Shown here: in pieces, positions 30,503-64,000 of the stretch
Numbering within the stretch: the stretch's first letter is position 1
How the letters are laid out: every line of letters starts with the position of its first letter
Source: Burkholderiales bacterium
Lineage (GTDB): Bacteria; Pseudomonadota; Gammaproteobacteria; Burkholderiales; SG8-41
NCBI GenBank assembly: GCA_022841375.1
Contig: JALHRQ010000001.1
Location: 186,001 to 250,000, forward strand
Length of the DNA: 64,000 nt
Reading direction: 5' to 3'
Notes under the pieces: model-generated
The model's database searches: none
Seen by the model: only the letters and a program-made list of their open reading frames with translations
Told to the model about the DNA's origin: nothing
Translations under genes and position numbers: made by a program

Positions 30503-31093
30503 ATGATCCGCTTATTCGTAATTCTGTTTACCCTGATTGCCGCCACCGCGGCTGGTGCCGCCAACCCGAAAGTCGAATTAAAAACGACCATGGGCAGCGT
30601 CGTTTTCGAACTGTATCCGGAGAACGCGCCGAAGACCGTCGAGAATTTCCTGCAGTACGTGAAGGATGGCTTCTACGACGGCACGGTTTTCCATCGCGTG
30701 ATCCCGGGCTTCATGGTCCAGGGCGGCGGCTTCACAACGAACATGCAGGAAAAAAAGACGCGGCCGATGATCCGCAATGAGGCCGGCAACGGCTTGCGCA
30801 ACGCCACCGGCACGGTAGCCATGGCTCGCACTGCTGACCCGCATTCCGCCACGGCGCAGTTTTTCATCAACGTCGCCGAGAATGATTTTCTCGATTTCAA
30901 ATCCGCGGATGACAAGGGTTACGGCTACACCGTATTCGCCCGCGTGACCTCCGGCATGGATGTGGTCGCCAAAATCGTGCAGGTACCGACGGCTACCGTC
31001 GGCCCGCACCAGAACGTGCCGCGCCAGCCCGTGATCATCGAGCGCGCGCGCCTGCTGCCCGAAGCGCCGGCCAAACCCGCAAAAACCAAATAA
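30503..31093 (+). CDS. Peptidylprolyl isomerase, cyclophilin type, with signal peptide
   Basis: Hydrophobic leader; YDGTVFHRVIPGFMVQGGGFTTNMQEKKTRPMIRNEAGNGLRN. Confidence 0.93.
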   Translation: MIRLFVILFTLIAATAAGAANPKVELKTTMGSVVFELYPENAPKTVENFLQYVKDGFYDGTVFHRVIPGFMVQGGGFTTNMQEKKTRPMIRNEAGNGLRNATGTVAMARTADPHSATAQFFINVAENDFLDFKSADDKGYGYTVFARVTSGMDVVAKIVQVPTATVGPHQNVPRQPVIIERARLLPEAPAKPAKTK

Positions 31094-31118: not shown

Positions 31119-31610
31119 ATGATCAAGCTGCATACCAACCACGGCGTCATCTCGCTGGAACTCGACGCCGCCAAAGCACCGGATACCGCCGCCAACTTCA
31201 TCCAGTACGTCAAGGACGGCCATTACAACAACACCGTGTTTCACCGCGTCATCGACGGCTTCATGATTCAGGGCGGCGGCTTCGAGCCCGGCATGAAACA
31301 GAAACCGACGCGCGATCCGGTGCAGAATGAGGCCAACAACGGCCTGAAGAACGACCTCTACACCGTGGCAATGGCACGCACTTCGGCGCCGCACTCGGCC
31401 AGCGCGCAGTTTTTCATCAACGTCGGCAACAATGATTTCCTCAACCACTCGGCGCCGACGCCGCAGGGCTGGGGTTATTGCGTGTTCGGCAAAGTCATCG
31501 ATGGCACCGATGTCGTCGACAAGATCCGCAAGGTAAAAACCGGCAGCAAGGGCATGCATCAGGACGTGCCGGTCGAAGACGTCGTCATCGAAAAAGCCGA
31601 AATCATCTGA
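31119..31610 (+). CDS. ppiB: Peptidylprolyl isomerase B (cytoplasmic cyclophilin)
   Basis: [59 protein letters not shown]. Confidence 0.93.
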
Positions 31611-50221: not shown

Positions 50222-51358
50222 TCATACATCCTCCAGCCAGCGCCACAACACCGCCGCCGCCAGCAGTCCGCATCCCGCCGCCAGCGTAAAGGTCAGCGCC
50301 GGCCCCAGCCCGCCCCAGGCATAACCGCTGGCGAGACCGCCGACTGTGCCGCCCAGTCCGTAAGCCAGACTGCCGTAAATCGCCTGACCGCGCGCCTGAT
50401 GGCGGCCACGAAACAGTTTGTGCACGACGCCAATTGCCGCCGCATGAAAGGAACCGAAACTCGCCGCATGCAAGGTTTGCGCCGCCAGCAGCAGCACGAT
50501 GCTGTCAGCGCCCCAGCCGATCACCACAAAACGCAAGGCCGCCAACAGCGTGCTGGCGATCAGGATGCTGCGCAACGTGAACGCGCGATACAGCCGCGAC
50601 ATCCAGATGAAAATGCCGATTTCGCAGATCACGCCCAGCGCCCACAGCAATCCAGCCACCGATTTGCTGTAGCCGTGGTCAACCAGATGAATCGTGTAGA
50701 AGGTGTAATACGGTCCGTGCGCCGCAGCCATCAGCGCCGACGCGCCGATCACCGCCAGCACTGCCGGCTTGCGCACGATCTGCCACACCGGCAGATCATC
50801 GCTCTCATCCGGCTCCGGCCTTGCTTCGGCGAGCGTAAACGACAGCAGCAACATGCCCGCCATCAGTCCGGCAATCACCCACAACACGGAACGCGGAGCG
50901 GTCGCGTCAATCAGATAACCGACCGCAACCACCGCGGCGATAAATCCCACCGATCCCCAGACGCGGATGCGTCCATAACGGGCAGTCTCATCACCGAGCT
51001 TCGACAGCGTGGTGGCTTCGACCAGCGGCAAGGCCGCGCTCCAGAAAAACATCATCGCGAACAACACCACAAACAACCACGCGAAACTGTCGCCGGCAAA
51101 CACACCGAGGAAAGCAACCATCCCGGCAGCGCCGGACACCCGCACCACGCCGATGCGCCGCCCGGTGTGATCAGCCAGCCAGCCCCACAGATGCGGCGCG
51201 AGGATGCGCGTCAACTGCGGCAACGCCATCAGCACGCCGATTTCGACGGCACTCATGCCGACCGAAGTCAGATACAGCGCGAAAAACGGCGCGAAGGCGC
51301 CGAGATAGGCGAAGTAGAAAAAGTAGAACGCGGAGAGATTGAGGTGAATCCTGGGCAC
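50222..51358 (-). CDS. MFS transporter (YcaD/HcaT-like)
   Basis: 12-TM ORF: LNLSAFYFFYFAYLGAFAPFFALYLTSVGMSAVEIGVLMALPQLTRILAPHLWGWLADHTGRR. Confidence 0.9.
   Translation of the reverse strand: MPRIHLNLSAFYFFYFAYLGAFAPFFALYLTSVGMSAVEIGVLMALPQLTRILAPHLWGWLADHTGRRIGVVRVSGAAGMVAFLGVFAGDSFAWLFVVLFAMMFFWSAALPLVEATTLSKLGDETARYGRIRVWGSVGFIAAVVAVGYLIDATAPRSVLWVIAGLMAGMLLLSFTLAEARPEPDESDDLPVWQIVRKPAVLAVIGASALMAAAHGPYYTFYTIHLVDHGYSKSVAGLLWALGVICEIGIFIWMSRLYRAFTLRSILIASTLLAALRFVVIGWGADSIVLLLAAQTLHAASFGSFHAAAIGVVHKLFRGRHQARGQAIYGSLAYGLGGTVGGLASGYAWGGLGPALTFTLAAGCGLLAAAVLWRWLEDV
51193..51346. repeat. 154-bp direct repeat, copy A (5' part of intact MFS gene)
   Basis: gcggcgcgaggatgcgcgtcaactg...cggagagattgaggtg reads identically at 54905-55058 by eye. 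Confidence 0.92.
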
Positions 51359-54792: not shown

Positions 54793-55083
54793 AGCCACGT
54801 TAGCGTAGCGCTCCTGAAAAAACATCGCCAGCAGCACGACGGACAACCAGGCAAAACTGTCGCCGGCAAAAACACCGAGGAAGGCCAGCGTGCCCGCCGC
54901 ACCGGCGGCGCGAGGATGCGCGTCAACTGCGGCAACGCCATCAGCACGCCGATTTCGACGGCACTCATGCCGACCGAAGTCAGATACAGCGCGAAAAACG
55001 GCGCGAAGGCGCCGAGATAGGCGAAGTAGAAAAAGTAGAACGCGGAGAGATTGAGGTGGATCGGCCGAGCCACGGTGCGGCAC
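54790..55083 (-). pseudogene. Truncated, internally deleted duplicate of the MFS transporter 5' end
   Basis: Translates LNLSAFYFFYFAYLGAFAPFFALYLTSVGMSAVEIGVLMALPQLTRILAPP...LAFLGVFAGDSFAWL then ends; ~50 bp missing relative to 51137-51192. Confidence 0.85.
54905..55058. repeat. 154-bp direct repeat, copy B (MFS remnant)
   Basis: Same sequence as 51193-51346; offset 3712 bp. Confidence 0.92.
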
Positions 55084-58168: not shown

Positions 58169-58963
58169 ATGCGCCCCTACCACGACCTCCTGCGCCACGT
58201 GCTCGAAACGGGCACCCGCAAATCCGACCGCACCGGCACCGGCACGCTGTCGGTGTTCGGCGCACAGTTGCGCTTCGACTTGAGCGCCGGCTTCCCGCTG
58301 ATGACCACCAAGAAGGTGCACCTGAAGTCGATCATCCACGAACTGCTGTGGTTTCTGCAGGGCGACACCAACGTCAAATACCTGAAGGACCACGGCGTCT
58401 CGATCTGGAATGAATGGGCCAAACCGGATGGCGACCTCGGTCCGGTCTATGGTTATCAATGGCGCTCGTGGCCCGCAGCCAACGGCAGCCACATCGACCA
58501 GATCAGCCAGGTATTGCAGCAACTGAAGAGCAACCCCGATTCGCGCCGGATGATCGTCTCGGCGTGGAATGTCGCCGACCTCGACCGGATGGCGCTGATG
58601 CCCTGCCACGCGTTTTTCCAGTTTTATGTCGCCGATGGCAAACTGTCGTGCCAGCTCTACCAGCGCAGCGCCGACATGTTCCTCGGTGTGCCGTTCAACA
58701 TCGCCTCATACGCGCTGCTGACACAGATGATCGCGCAGGTGTGCGGATTGAAGCTCGGCGATTTTGTGCACACCTTCGGCGACACACACATCTACCTGAA
58801 TCACATGGACCAGGTGAAGGAACAGTTGTCGCGCGAACCGCGGCCGCTGCCGGTGATGAAACTCAACCCGGCGGTCAAAGACCTGTTCGCGTTCCAATAC
58901 GAAGACTTCACCCTGGAAAACTACGATCCGCATCCGGCCATCAAAGCGCCGGTGGCGGTGTAA
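58169..58963 (+). CDS. thyA: Thymidylate synthase
   Basis: [76 protein letters not shown]. Confidence 0.98.
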
Positions 58964-58966
58964 GGC

Positions 58967-59476
58967 ATGAACGCGCCAGCCAAACCGCGGCTGTCGATGA
59001 TCGTCGCCATGGCCCGCAACCGGGTCATCGGCGCCAATGGCAAGATTCCCTGGCATCTGCCCAATGAACTGCAGTTGTTCAAATCAGTAACCATGGGCCA
59101 CCACATCATCATGGGCCGCAAGACCTATGAATCGATCAATCGCCTGCTCCCCGGCCGCACCACGGTGATCGTTACGCGGCAGCGCGATTACACGATACCC
59201 GGCGCAAAAATCGCGCACACGCTGGAAGACGCCATCTCACAGTGTGCCGGCGACAGCGAAATCTTTATCATCGGCGGCGGCGAACTCTACCGCGCGGCAA
59301 TGCCGCTGGCCGACCGCCTCTACCTGACCGTGGTCGACGCCGAACCCGCCGGCGACACGCAGATGCCTGAATTCAACGCGGCGCAATGGCGCCTGCACAG
59401 CACCGAGCAGTTTCGCAGGGACGAACGCCATGCCTACGATTACCGCTTCGAGGTGCATGACCGTGTGGCGGCCTAG
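58967..59476 (+). CDS. folA: Dihydrofolate reductase
   Basis: LSMIVAMARNRVIGANGKIPWHLPNELQLFKSVTMGHHIIMGRKTYESI. Confidence 0.97.
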   Translation: MNAPAKPRLSMIVAMARNRVIGANGKIPWHLPNELQLFKSVTMGHHIIMGRKTYESINRLLPGRTTVIVTRQRDYTIPGAKIAHTLEDAISQCAGDSEIFIIGGGELYRAAMPLADRLYLTVVDAEPAGDTQMPEFNAAQWRLHSTEQFRRDERHAYDYRFEVHDRVAA

Positions 59477-60196: not shown

Positions 60197-63100
60197 TTAT
60201 TTTTTCATTACCGCGATACCGGAGATTGTAACCGGCCCCGATGGTCCTACTTTGTCATGCAGCGAGTACGCAATACCCGCTGCTGTCGCACCATTGGTGA
60301 AACCGCCAAGCACCTGGCCTGCAGTCGTCGTCGATGAGCCCGCACGCGTCACCGCGAGATCCCCGCCGCCTCCTTGCAGCGACTTCTCGGCAAAGAACAC
60401 CGACTTCTGGATGATCGGCAGGTTGCTCGCCGTCGCCGTCCAACTGCCGCTGCCCGGCGTACTGGCATTGATCGCAAGGTTGGTGACCTTCTGGTTCAGG
60501 AAATCGACATTCAAAGTTACCGCACCTAATGTTCCGACATCCGCCACAGACTGTCCCGGCGTAAACGCTGTCGGTGAAGTGCCGCCGATCAAGGTGTAGT
60601 TGGCGGTACCCGTGGTCGGTATGGTCACCGGGCCGGCCTGGGCGCTGGTGATCAGGTAATGCCAGTTCTGCGCGGTGAGGTCAAAAGTCGCCGGTACCGT
60701 GCCGCCCGGCGGCGCCGAAGCGCCATTGGCGCTGCCACGGTCGCCGACATTGACCACACCACCACCCCAGCGCCCCCAGCGCACGCCGGTAGCGGCGTCA
60801 TAGCCGGTTTCCAGCGCCACTGCAGTGGCCGCAGTGCGACCGTTGGTCACCGTCGGTCCGCCACCCGTCGCGTCAGCAAACGCATAACGCACCGGTAACT
60901 GCGACTCGGAATTGCACGTCGATCCCGGGAAACAGGAATTCCAGACCATCGGCTGGCGGTCATCGAATTTGATCAGCGCACCCTGCGGATTTGCCGGCGC
61001 CACCGTAGACGAGTTGACGAACTGCGTGCGATCGCTGGACACAGCCATCATGTCCGCTTGGTAATTCGCCCACTCGTTTACCAGTTCGGTGGCTCCGGTG
61101 CCGTCGCGCGTCACCGCACCTATCGTCGGATTCATGCCTTTCGCCAGCAACATCATCCGGTAATCCATCAGCACACTGGGCTTGAAGGTCGAACCATCCG
61201 CCGGTGTCGTGGTATATGCGGGGTTGCCGAACACCAGCGTGCCGGTGGCGCGCTCAGTCAGCCCGTTGAAGGCGAAAGCCAGCCCGGCACCGCCGAGGAT
61301 GCCGTCACCGCTGGCTGGCGCCGGGGCGGTGGTGTTCATCAGCAGACCGTTCAGCGAACCGAAGGTATTGGTCGGACTGCCATTGAACGTCAGGGAATTG
61401 AAATTGTGCCGGAACGCGCCATTGCTCGACGCCCAGAAGAACGCGCCGTCATCCAGGGAGACCCCATTCGCTGTCGCAGCAAATGTGCCGCCGCTGACAA
61501 TCGCGTTGATCGAAGAATTGACGGTCTGCGCATTGAAGTTCACTTGCAGCGTGCCGGTGACAGAACCCGGGACGCCAGCCTGGTTGGTGACATATCCGCC
61601 CAGTTGGGTATAGCCCACGGGCACCGTGACATTAGATCCGTCCACCGCGGCCACCATCGCACTGCCGGCGTACCACGGGAACAGTGCCGGGCCGCGTAGC
61701 CAGTGGAAGGCATCGAGGGGCACGCGTCCTGCAAACGATCCGTTCCAGTCCTGGCCCGAAAGCGTAGGCTGAAATACATAGCCATGCGAGATACCCTGTG
61801 CTGAGGCATTGACTGCACCGGTACCCGGCGATGTGAGCGTGATGCTATCTTCCTCGAACACGCTGGAAATGAGCGTCGGATTACCCGAACCGTCGATGGC
61901 ATAGCCCGGTGGTATCAGCGCGCTCGAACCCCATAACGTGGCACTGCCGGGTGAATCATAGGAATACGACCGCATCTCGTTGAATGAGCCGTTGAAAAAA
62001 GTATAGGCGCTCAAGATCACCGCATCGCCCGGCGGATTCGGTCCCGGCGACAGCACGCTGAACTGCGCCGGATTGGAGCGCGGCGTGACGTAGGTCGAAC
62101 CGACAGCGGCGGTCGGATCGCGGCCGAACGCGACATAACCGTTGGTGTATTCCTCGTAAGTACGGCCGGCGCTCGCGGCCGCCGCGGCATTGGCATAATT
62201 CGTATTGAAGGTATAACGATAATAAGCCCCCTCAACGAGACCTGCAGTGCCGGCGGCTTGCTCGCCGGCAAAAGCGCCGCGTACGCGACCGCCATAGCTC
62301 TGGCTGGGTGCGCACCCCGGACCAAAACAACTGACACTCAGCGCATCGGATGTGCTGACATTGAAACCGCCGTTGCTGATAGGCGCCTCGTCGGCTCTGG
62401 CGTTGAACAGCAAACCACCCGCAGTCGGCATGCTGACACTCAGGCCCAGGCTGACCAGCGAGCGGTCAAAATCGACCGCCAGACGTGCGCGCTCGAGCAC
62501 GCCGACATTGCCGAAATTGTCGGTCGGGCTGGTCGCCGCCACTTTGCTGTAGTTGTGGGTGCCGGTGACGCCGGTAAAACCACCGGTTGGCACACCCTGA
62601 CGGATCAGCCAGTGCGCGCTGCCGAGGATCGGATCGAGATAGGCATCGCCGGTCAGGGTATCCAGCACGTTGATGGCGCCGCCCTGCCAGCGGCCGAGGC
62701 GGATGATCGGATCGGCATAACCGGTGGGCGTGTATTCGTAATGTTCCGCCGCCACCGACCCCGACGCGCCGAACGACACCTGCGCGTTGGCCAGCGGTGT
62801 CGGCACGCGAAAATTGGTCGTAGTCGCTGCGACATCGTCACCGCGGTCGAACACCACGTAACTGGTATCGAAAATGCGCACCAGATTGCCGGCCGCATCG
62901 AACATCACATTGTTACTGGTTCGGGGTCCGTTATAAACAAAGCCGGGGTTGGCCGTAAGCCCGCTGACAGTGTCGCGAATGCTGCCGAAATAAACCCCGC
63001 CAGTGGGTATGCCGCCGATTCCGCCCGTCGAATATAAAACTTCGTTACGCACATTGGCGCTGCCATTGAAATTACTTAGCACACCCGTTGCAGGTGCCGC

Positions 63101-64000
63101 CGCAGAATTCAGCACTGCCACACCGTGAATGTAATCAGCATCCAGCCCGTTGTCGGTCATTACACCCGGCGCAGGAACAAAACCGTAAGACAGCCCCACG
63201 CCGGTACCGACCGCCCCTGTTGCCGTACCGCCAAAAGTCCCTCCAACTTCACCCACATAGCCACCGGGCGCGCAATTCGCACCCGTGCAACTGATAACAC
63301 CGGGGGCTTCGAAAAATAATCCTCCGACGCTGCCGTCGCGCATCAATGGGACGTTGGGGGTGGAAGCCGTGATGTTGAGATCACGCGCACTGATGTTGAC
63401 CACATCGGCTGTGCTGAATCCCAGGTTGAGCGCAGCGCTCGCGGTCTGGGCGCTGAAGTTTGCAGCCACGCTCGCCGAATTAAGTGTTCCAACGTTGCCG
63501 AAGGAATCCGTCGGTCGCGTCGCCGCCGTGAGCGCATAGTTGGCGGTACCGGTCACCGTCTGCACGTTATTGACCGGGCCGTAAAAATTGGAAAGCGTGG
63601 ATGAATTTCCCGGCATCAATCCGATCAGCCAGTGCGCACTGGCAGGACCTAACAGACGCGTAAACGGCCCAACCACGTTCGCATTGTCATCAACGACAAT
63701 CTGTCCACCCTGGATGCGGCCCAAGTAAACCGTATTGTCAGGCGCCTTGAAAAGGTCGAGGGCCAAACCGCCGCTGAATTTCACGTTGGCATCGTCGATG
63801 TTGTCAGTCGGTCCCGGCCCTTCAAATGAGGTGTTGCGCATTTCAACCAGACTCTTGTTGCCATCCAGCACGTAATTGGTATTTGACACGGGTGCGATCG
63901 AACCCATGAAGGAGCGAATCGTGCCTGCGGATGGCGCCTGGCTAGAGGCCATATGGCCGAAGTTGGCGCTGGCCACCGCCGGGTTGTTGTACTGCGCCTG
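60197..64000 (-). CDS. Large repeat-containing surface/secreted-type protein, N-terminus outside window
   Basis: Open minus-strand frame of >1259 aa; low Cys, G/A/N/T-rich, internally repeated modules (HWLI..., GTxNYxLxxxTxPTDxFGNVGTL, CxGxxCxP..GxFxGxxAxGxGxxYxF). Confidence 0.8.
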   Translation of the reverse strand, partial: QAQYNNPAVASANFGHMASSQAPSAGTIRSFMGSIAPVSNTNYVLDGNKSLVEMRNTSFEGPGPTDNIDDANVKFSGGLALDLFKAPDNTVYLGRIQGGQIVVDDNANVVGPFTRLLGPASAHWLIGLMPGNSSTLSNFYGPVNNVQTVTGTANYALTAATRPTDSFGNVGTLNSASVAANFSAQTASAALNLGFSTADVVNISARDLNITASTPNVPLMRDGSVGGLFFEAPGVISCTGANCAPGGYVGEVGGTFGGTATGAVGTGVGLSYGFVPAPGVMTDNGLDADYIHGVAVLNSAAAPATGVLSNFNGSANVRNEVLYSTGGIGGIPTGGVYFGSIRDTVSGLTANPGFVYNGPRTSNNVMFDAAGNLVRIFDTSYVVFDRGDDVAATTTNFRVPTPLANAQVSFGASGSVAAEHYEYTPTGYADPIIRLGRWQGGAINVLDTLTGDAYLDPILGSAHWLIRQGVPTGGFTGVTGTHNYSKVAATSPTDNFGNVGVLERARLAVDFDRSLVSLGLSVSMPTAGGLLFNARADEAPISNGGFNVSTSDALSVSCFGPGCAPSQSYGGRVRGAFAGEQAAGTAGLVEGAYYRYTFNTNYANAAAAASAGRTYEEYTNGYVAFGRDPTAAVGSTYVTPRSNPAQFSVLSPGPNPPGDAVILSAYTFFNGSFNEMRSYSYDSPGSATLWGSSALIPPGYAIDGSGNPTLISSVFEEDSITLTSPGTGAVNASAQGISHGYVFQPTLSGQDWNGSFAGRVPLDAFHWLRGPALFPWYAGSAMVAAVDGSNVTVPVGYTQLGGYVTNQAGVPGSVTGTLQVNFNAQTVNSSINAIVSGGTFAATANGVSLDDGAFFWASSNGAFRHNFNSLTFNGSPTNTFGSLNGLLMNTTAPAPASGDGILGGAGLAFAFNGLTERATGTLVFGNPAYTTTPADGSTFKPSVLMDYRMMLLAKGMNPTIGAVTRDGTGATELVNEWANYQADMMAVSSDRTQFVNSSTVAPANPQGALIKFDDRQPMVWNSCFPGSTCNSESQLPVRYAFADATGGGPTVTNGRTAATAVALETGYDAATGVRWGRWGGGVVNVGDRGSANGASAPPGGTVPATFDLTAQNWHYLITSAQAGPVTIPTTGTANYTLIGGTSPTAFTPGQSVADVGTLGAVTLNVDFLNQKVTNLAINASTPGSGSWTATASNLPIIQKSVFFAEKSLQGGGGDLAVTRAGSSTTTAGQVLGGFTNGATAAGIAYSLHDKVGPSGPVTISGIAVMKK

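Follow-up and report, generated by a model that had tools for sequence, protein, structure and literature searches.

The closest described systems to the locus reported here are Slam1-TbpB and HrpB-HrpC/hemophilin (T11SS 1B), in which an outer-membrane protein (OMP) with a TPR domain and a SlipAM barrel is encoded next to its cargo, and the cargo is built of handle and barrel lobes that end at the C-terminus (PMC9090332, PMC8406197). TbpB crosses the outer membrane unfolded, carried by Slam with the help of Skp, and a C-terminal motif has been proposed as the signal (PMC9090332). Known cargo of the type 11 secretion system (T11SS), which includes TbpB and hemophilin (PMC9090332, PMC8406197), has one or two barrels, apart from a few multi-barrel proteins of Sphingomonas and Psychrobacter (PMC12282271). 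The T11SS network was divided into ten clusters; the nine outside cluster 1 contain no characterized protein, and unknown cargo is expected there (PMC8406197). The FecR domain is unmentioned in the main text of the T11SS papers compared, and a search of open-access papers (subscription papers and supplements lay outside it) found none treating FecR and T11SS together. An exported FecR-domain protein has been described in the Burkholderia CHASE2-LysM/FecR BiofilmReg operon, where a LysM and FecR protein accompanies a CHASE2 kinase and the main text has no outer membrane or TPR gene (PMC5192318).

The locus analyzed here shares with Slam1-TbpB and HrpB-HrpC/hemophilin the type of OMP, the adjacent gene, and the handle and barrel lobes reaching the C-terminus. 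The product of the adjacent gene, a giant protein, has no canonical lipobox, as in the soluble T11SS 1B class. In contrast to those systems, it adds an N-terminal FecR domain, a heptad stalk, and four lobes; no TonB-dependent receptor was recognized beside the pair, which also falls below the Pfam cut-offs for TbpB_B_D and TPR_Slam. The multi-TbpBBD surface proteins of Sphingomonas and Psychrobacter likewise have several barrel lobes in tandem behind a repetitive N-terminal region, beside a T11SS OMP, although the repeats described for them are of the Pro/Thr type, unlike those of the present protein (PMC12282271). With the BiofilmReg operon, the locus has in common the exported FecR-domain protein, and CHASE2 genes adjoin some members of the present family. 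We consider it probable that the two genes form a Slam-type (T11SS-like) export pair, in which the giant protein is a cargo combining FecR with tandem TbpB-like lobes.

Organization of the giant gene and its product

The window, that is, the whole stretch of 64,000 nucleotides that was analyzed (contig 1, positions 186001–250000, of a 4.08-Mb genome), contains the 3′ part of the giant gene, the frame of which stays open beyond the window end (Table 1). The complete protein of 2,281 amino acids consists of a signal peptide, a FecR domain, a Pro/Ala/Lys-rich linker, Ala/Thr-rich heptads, and four lobes, in this order. The signal peptide, recognized by inspection, is of the Sec type (residues about 1–25, MKSLHILRIVAAVLAMFLSCGSVWA-NIG). 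The FecR domain occupies residues 59–143 (PF04773; 32.9 bits, cut-off 24); a Pfam scan of the undivided protein gave no match, and the domain appeared once the protein had been cut into pieces. The stalk (residues 371–1010, about 640 amino acids) is Ala/Thr-rich, proline-free from residue 573, and has a strong seven-residue periodicity (z = 16 against shuffles). It is 70% identical to the stalk of the closest relative and was seen in no other relative among those inspected at full sequence; most family members are 450–1,000 amino acids long and without a stalk.

Table 1. Coordinates of the giant gene and its features. A window position equals the L002 position plus 57999.
Feature	Position	Strand	Residues	Basis or remark
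FecR-stalk-lobes gene, whole	L002:2198-9043	minus		rest beyond the window
FecR-stalk-lobes gene, 3′ part	window 60197..64000	minus	1015-2281 + stop	
Lobe 1	63110..63763	minus	1094-1311	HMM
Cys pair CTGANC, lobe 1	63272..63289	minus	1252-1257	
Lobe 2	62177..62725	minus	1440-1622	HMM + AlphaFold model
Cys pair CFGPGC, lobe 2	62312..62329	minus	1572-1577	
Lobe 3	61229..61822	minus	1741-1938	HMM
Lobe 4, C-terminal	60200..60826	minus	2073-2281	HMM + AlphaFold model

Four diverged C-terminal lobes

A lobe HMM was built only from the C-terminal domains of four distant relatives, leaving out the giant protein and its near relatives. It found four modules, at residues 1100–1288 (53 bits), 1447–1602 (49), 1819–1939 (22), and 2070–2276 (96), while 1,000 shuffles of the region reached at most 2.2 bits. 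Each lobe is composed of a variable N-terminal part and a barrel with the signature GRW...HWL...GTANY...GxFxG, and the barrel of lobe 4 reaches the C-terminus of the protein. Modules 1–3 are diverged repeats, 24–27% identical to module 4 in the module alignment. The least conserved of the four with respect to the closest relative is lobe 1 (51% identity), and lobe 3, which has the lowest profile score, is without a Cys pair. In addition to the pairs of lobes 1 and 2, a third Cys pair (residues 2037/2043) stands between modules 3 and 4.

The first-pass annotation of the window had described an exported-looking frame of more than 1,259 amino acids with at least four diverged tandem modules, two of them with Cys pairs, and had likened the end module to a domain of FecR-associated proteins. 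The giant open frame stood, its full length lying far beyond that figure; the four modules and the two Cys-bearing ones were recovered, the quoted motifs occur at the positions given for them, the signal peptide agrees with export, and FecR proved to be the N-terminal domain of the same protein.

After iteration over 54 ORFs of relatives that encode FecR or lobes, the lobe profile settled at 74 matches, 69 of them strong full-length lobes. A close Cys pair was present in 49 of these 69 lobes, against 4.9 expected, and such pairs would fit a disulfide hairpin in an exported domain. The number of lobes per protein was 0 in 13 proteins, 1 in 24, 2 in 9, 3 in 3, and 4 in 4, with some proteins cut by contig ends or carrying possible lobes beyond the reach of the profile.

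AlphaFold models were built from 12-sequence alignments for positions 60200–61210 (lobe 4) and 62123–62995 (lobe 2). Both have a handle and an eight-stranded barrel at the C-terminus; the barrel was confident in lobe 4 (71–96 in 10-residue blocks) and of fair confidence in lobe 2, and the N-terminal parts, including the handle, were poor. In Foldseek searches of the PDB, TbpB took ranks 1–4 with the lobe 4 model (E 1.3e-4 to 5.8e-3) and TbpB/LbpB took ranks 1–17 with the lobe 2 model (E from 3.7e-4), in line with the beta-barrel-like repeated fold that had been expected from the letters. The whole-model TM-scores of lobes 2 and 4 were low (0.3–0.4), at least partly because of the poorly modeled N-terminal parts.

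When the profile of the 69 lobes was compared with 177,635 PDB sequences, hemophilin came first (0.0016), followed by a related hemophore (0.0039). Pfam TbpB_B_D had no match in the four lobes of the giant protein itself, and among the family lobes it reached E ≤ 0.5 in 3 of 69, the best (0.005) being below the cut-off. The lobe HMM matched a lipoprotein at L075, which adjoins a canonical Slam and passes Pfam FHBP_C and TbpB_B_D, and a protein at L073 that passes TbpB_B_D, both with values near 1e-8 (search space 2,000); the TbpB_B_D-passing proteins found by this HMM adjoin a bona fide Slam or a related OMP. When hhalign was used to compare the lobe profile with two single TbpB_B_D proteins, which the HMM search finds near 1e-8, the matches were weak, with probabilities of 64.7% and 1.4%. 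The predicted fold is TbpB-like, and several weak, agreeing lines suggest that single lobes are homologous to TbpB.

A phylogenetic tree of the 69 lobes (FastTree only, with poorly resolved deep branches) placed each of the four lobes nearest to the same-position lobe of the closest relative, which likewise has four lobes. Lobes 1, 2, and 3 clustered with their positional counterparts in L017, and the final lobes of related proteins clustered together; the nearest relative lay inside the same protein for 8 of the 47 lobes from multi-lobe proteins. The lobes group by position across proteins, and the duplications are therefore older than these lineages. In the tree, the lobes are ancient and tied to their place in the protein, and each place has remained distinct, as the two TbpB lobes have. 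This grouping does not support the evolving modules of the first-pass annotation, if a changing array is meant by them. A recent tandem expansion was considered as well; it was ruled out by the tree and by the absence of DNA-level tandem repeats in the lobes.

The upstream outer-membrane protein

The OMP gene lies 71 bp upstream of the giant gene, on the same strand. The first-pass annotation had proposed extension upstream in search of secretion genes and missed this one because it is outside the window. Its product of 457 amino acids has an N-terminal TPR domain (TPR_19, 44.9 bits) and a SlipAM match that covers the full barrel (23.2 bits against the Pfam cut-off of 22), with the TPR_Slam match remaining below cut-off (20.2 against 35.2). 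It is the sole SlipAM gene in the host genome. SlipAM was detected in 34 of the 48 related OMPs, with a best value of 2e-23. The profile of the OMP family was also aligned to a canonical Slam, itself a 290-bit match to PF04575; the alignment spans 353 columns (E 2e-24). Judged by these alignments, the OMP is a homologue of Slam, the T11SS translocon. A Slam-type exporter encoded directly upstream explains the architecture better than the matrix protein suggested earlier.

Pairing of the OMP and FecR genes

The OMP profile was found in 80 of 250 genomes from the order, the lobe profile in 49, and both in 47; the lobe profile thus occurred in 47 of the 80 genomes with the OMP against 2 of the 170 without it (p 1e-26). 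The OMP gene was upstream of 51 of 56 lobe ORFs, on the same strand. Each of the 50 OMP genes in the order-level loci that were read had a FecR gene within 600 bp (20 of these loci were picked for having no lobe found, and the order-level OMP count includes one gene, split by a frameshift, twice), and in 48 cases it was the next gene downstream on the same strand. Phylum-wide, FecR was within 600 bp in 12 of 20 loci picked from the OMP matches; the loci without a nearby FecR include canonical Slams and large lobe proteins devoid of FecR. At L061 and L062, for instance, a Slam-type OMP is followed by proteins of 1,020 and 1,206 amino acids with three such lobes, in which no FecR domain was found. 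Conversely, barrel-less FecR partners with Pro-/Gly-rich or short tails stand beside the same type of OMP at L050, L052, L064, L067, and L071. FecR partners without a recognizable barrel thus exist, so the barrel is not what every such OMP recognizes.

The OMP-FecR pairing occurs across Proteobacteria and supplies a likely cargo for a secretion system about which little is understood. With the OMP present in 80 of the 250 genomes and FecR beside it at every order-level locus read, a large testable set of candidate T11SS cargo is available, and the natural gradation of this cargo from 0 to 4 lobes is useful for finding what the translocon reads. Through the pairing, a domain known for inward signaling, FecR, becomes connected with an outward secretion route.

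Proposed export and alternative explanations

In the proposed Slam-type export pair, the OMP would form an outer-membrane barrel with a periplasmic TPR domain, and the giant protein, its probable cargo, would reach the periplasm by the Sec-type signal peptide. The C-terminal TbpB-like lobe or lobes would be recognized by the OMP and threaded through unfolded; by analogy with Slam-TbpB, the recognition point would be the last lobe, where the protein ends. The lobes would then fold outside the cell, and the FecR end may follow on the Ala/Thr-rich heptad stalk, or stay. Since a canonical lipobox is absent, the giant protein probably either leaves the cell or stays attached to the envelope through its FecR end. 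Each of the four lobes is taken to be specialized for binding, as the two TbpB lobes are. They resemble heme- and transferrin-binding proteins, so that a binding role is the default guess, although ligand residues were not recognized in them; a surface role of the protein is plausible.

FecR is constant while the lobes come and go, which leaves room for recognition through FecR. Accordingly, the FecR domain rather than the barrel could be the partner of the OMP, serving as a periplasmic adaptor or anchor, or as a signal to a CHASE2 sensor, with the lobes as an optional displayed passenger. The unbroken FecR pairing in the order with a varying number of lobes and the barrel-less FecR partners agree with this, as do CHASE2 cyclases or kinases adjoining the pair in 6 of 8 neighbors tested (picked as likely candidates) and a LysM-like sequence seen by eye ahead of FecR in the L060 cargo. 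However, canonical Slams and L061, L062, L073, and L075 have barrel cargo without FecR, so the OMP family overall appears to work through barrels, and no CHASE2 gene was seen beside the locus studied; we regard recognition through FecR as somewhat unlikely.

It is unlikely that the giant protein is a surface adhesin or matrix protein, reaching out and sticking by its stalk and repeats, to which the exporter is incidental. Its size, heptad stalk, and four lobes would suit such a role, as would a weak N-terminal match to the Leptospira adhesin Lsa33 and the GT41 glycosyltransferase genes that adjoin the pair at L024, L025, L039, and L043; the GT41 enzyme HMW1C modifies a two-partner-secreted adhesin. 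However, the lobes look like the ligand-binding TbpB and hemophilin, the stalk was seen only in this protein and one relative, N-glycosylation sequons are not enriched, and the variation of the lobes in the tree is unlike that of adhesin repeats.

We also envisage, as quite an unlikely case, a Slam-assembled trans-envelope receptor with the lobes and stalk outside and FecR in the periplasm, where ligand binding would be reported inward via FecR and, in some lineages, to the CHASE2 cyclase or kinase of an adjacent gene. Such a receptor, if true, would represent a second route for signaling across the outer membrane, unlike FecA-FecR.

It is very doubtful that the OMP is an exopolysaccharide-type TPR porin (EpsL/BcsC/PgaA-like) with the FecR protein as an unsecreted periplasmic accessory: the OMP weakly matches the EpsL and BcsC models and BBP2_2 occurs in 10 of the 48 related OMPs, but the prevalence of SlipAM in the family, its full-barrel match in the host OMP, and the canonical Slam alignment speak against a porin, and no polysaccharide genes were present among the neighbors examined at the locus. 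A classical FecR anti-sigma regulator, which the PF04773 match would allow, or an autotransporter is extremely improbable, as the signal peptide directly precedes FecR with no N-terminal cytoplasmic part, no sigma factor gene was seen among the locus neighbors by inspection, the C-terminal pieces contain no autotransporter domain (Pfam), and the model of the C-terminus looks like a soluble lobe of TbpB.

Gene neighborhoods

CHASE2 cyclase or histidine-kinase genes were located no more than a few kb from the OMP-FecR pair at L034, L040, L063, L064, L067, and L072, and more were present in other genomes of the order. CHASE2 occurs in 173 of the 250 genomes, which is too common for co-occurrence to mean much, so that adjacency alone counts; the host genome has two CHASE2 genes, one of them on contig 22. 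The GT41 genes mentioned above are of the TPR/GT41 (OGT-like) type and lie close downstream of the FecR cargo gene, an arrangement that recalls HMW1C and its adhesin. The GT41 and CHASE2 neighbors point to surface glycoprotein or signaling roles in those lineages.

Thymidylate synthase and dihydrofolate reductase genes (window 58169–59476, from ORF reading) are located close to the pair, as well as at L055 and partly at L060; co-occurrence of T11SS loci with one-carbon genes has been reported (PMC12282271). At L012, a 2,726-amino-acid protein with Ig, cadherin, and PKD repeats is encoded directly downstream of the pair (L012:10579-18759). Elsewhere in the window, a partial copy of the start of an MFS-like transporter gene (50222–51358) was detected at 54808–55062, downstream of an NrdG-like gene; it is a duplication remnant, 95.5% identical over 179 bp and 82.5% over 80 bp. 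Two 270-bp stretches (30623–30892 and 31173–31442) are 72% alike and in direct orientation.
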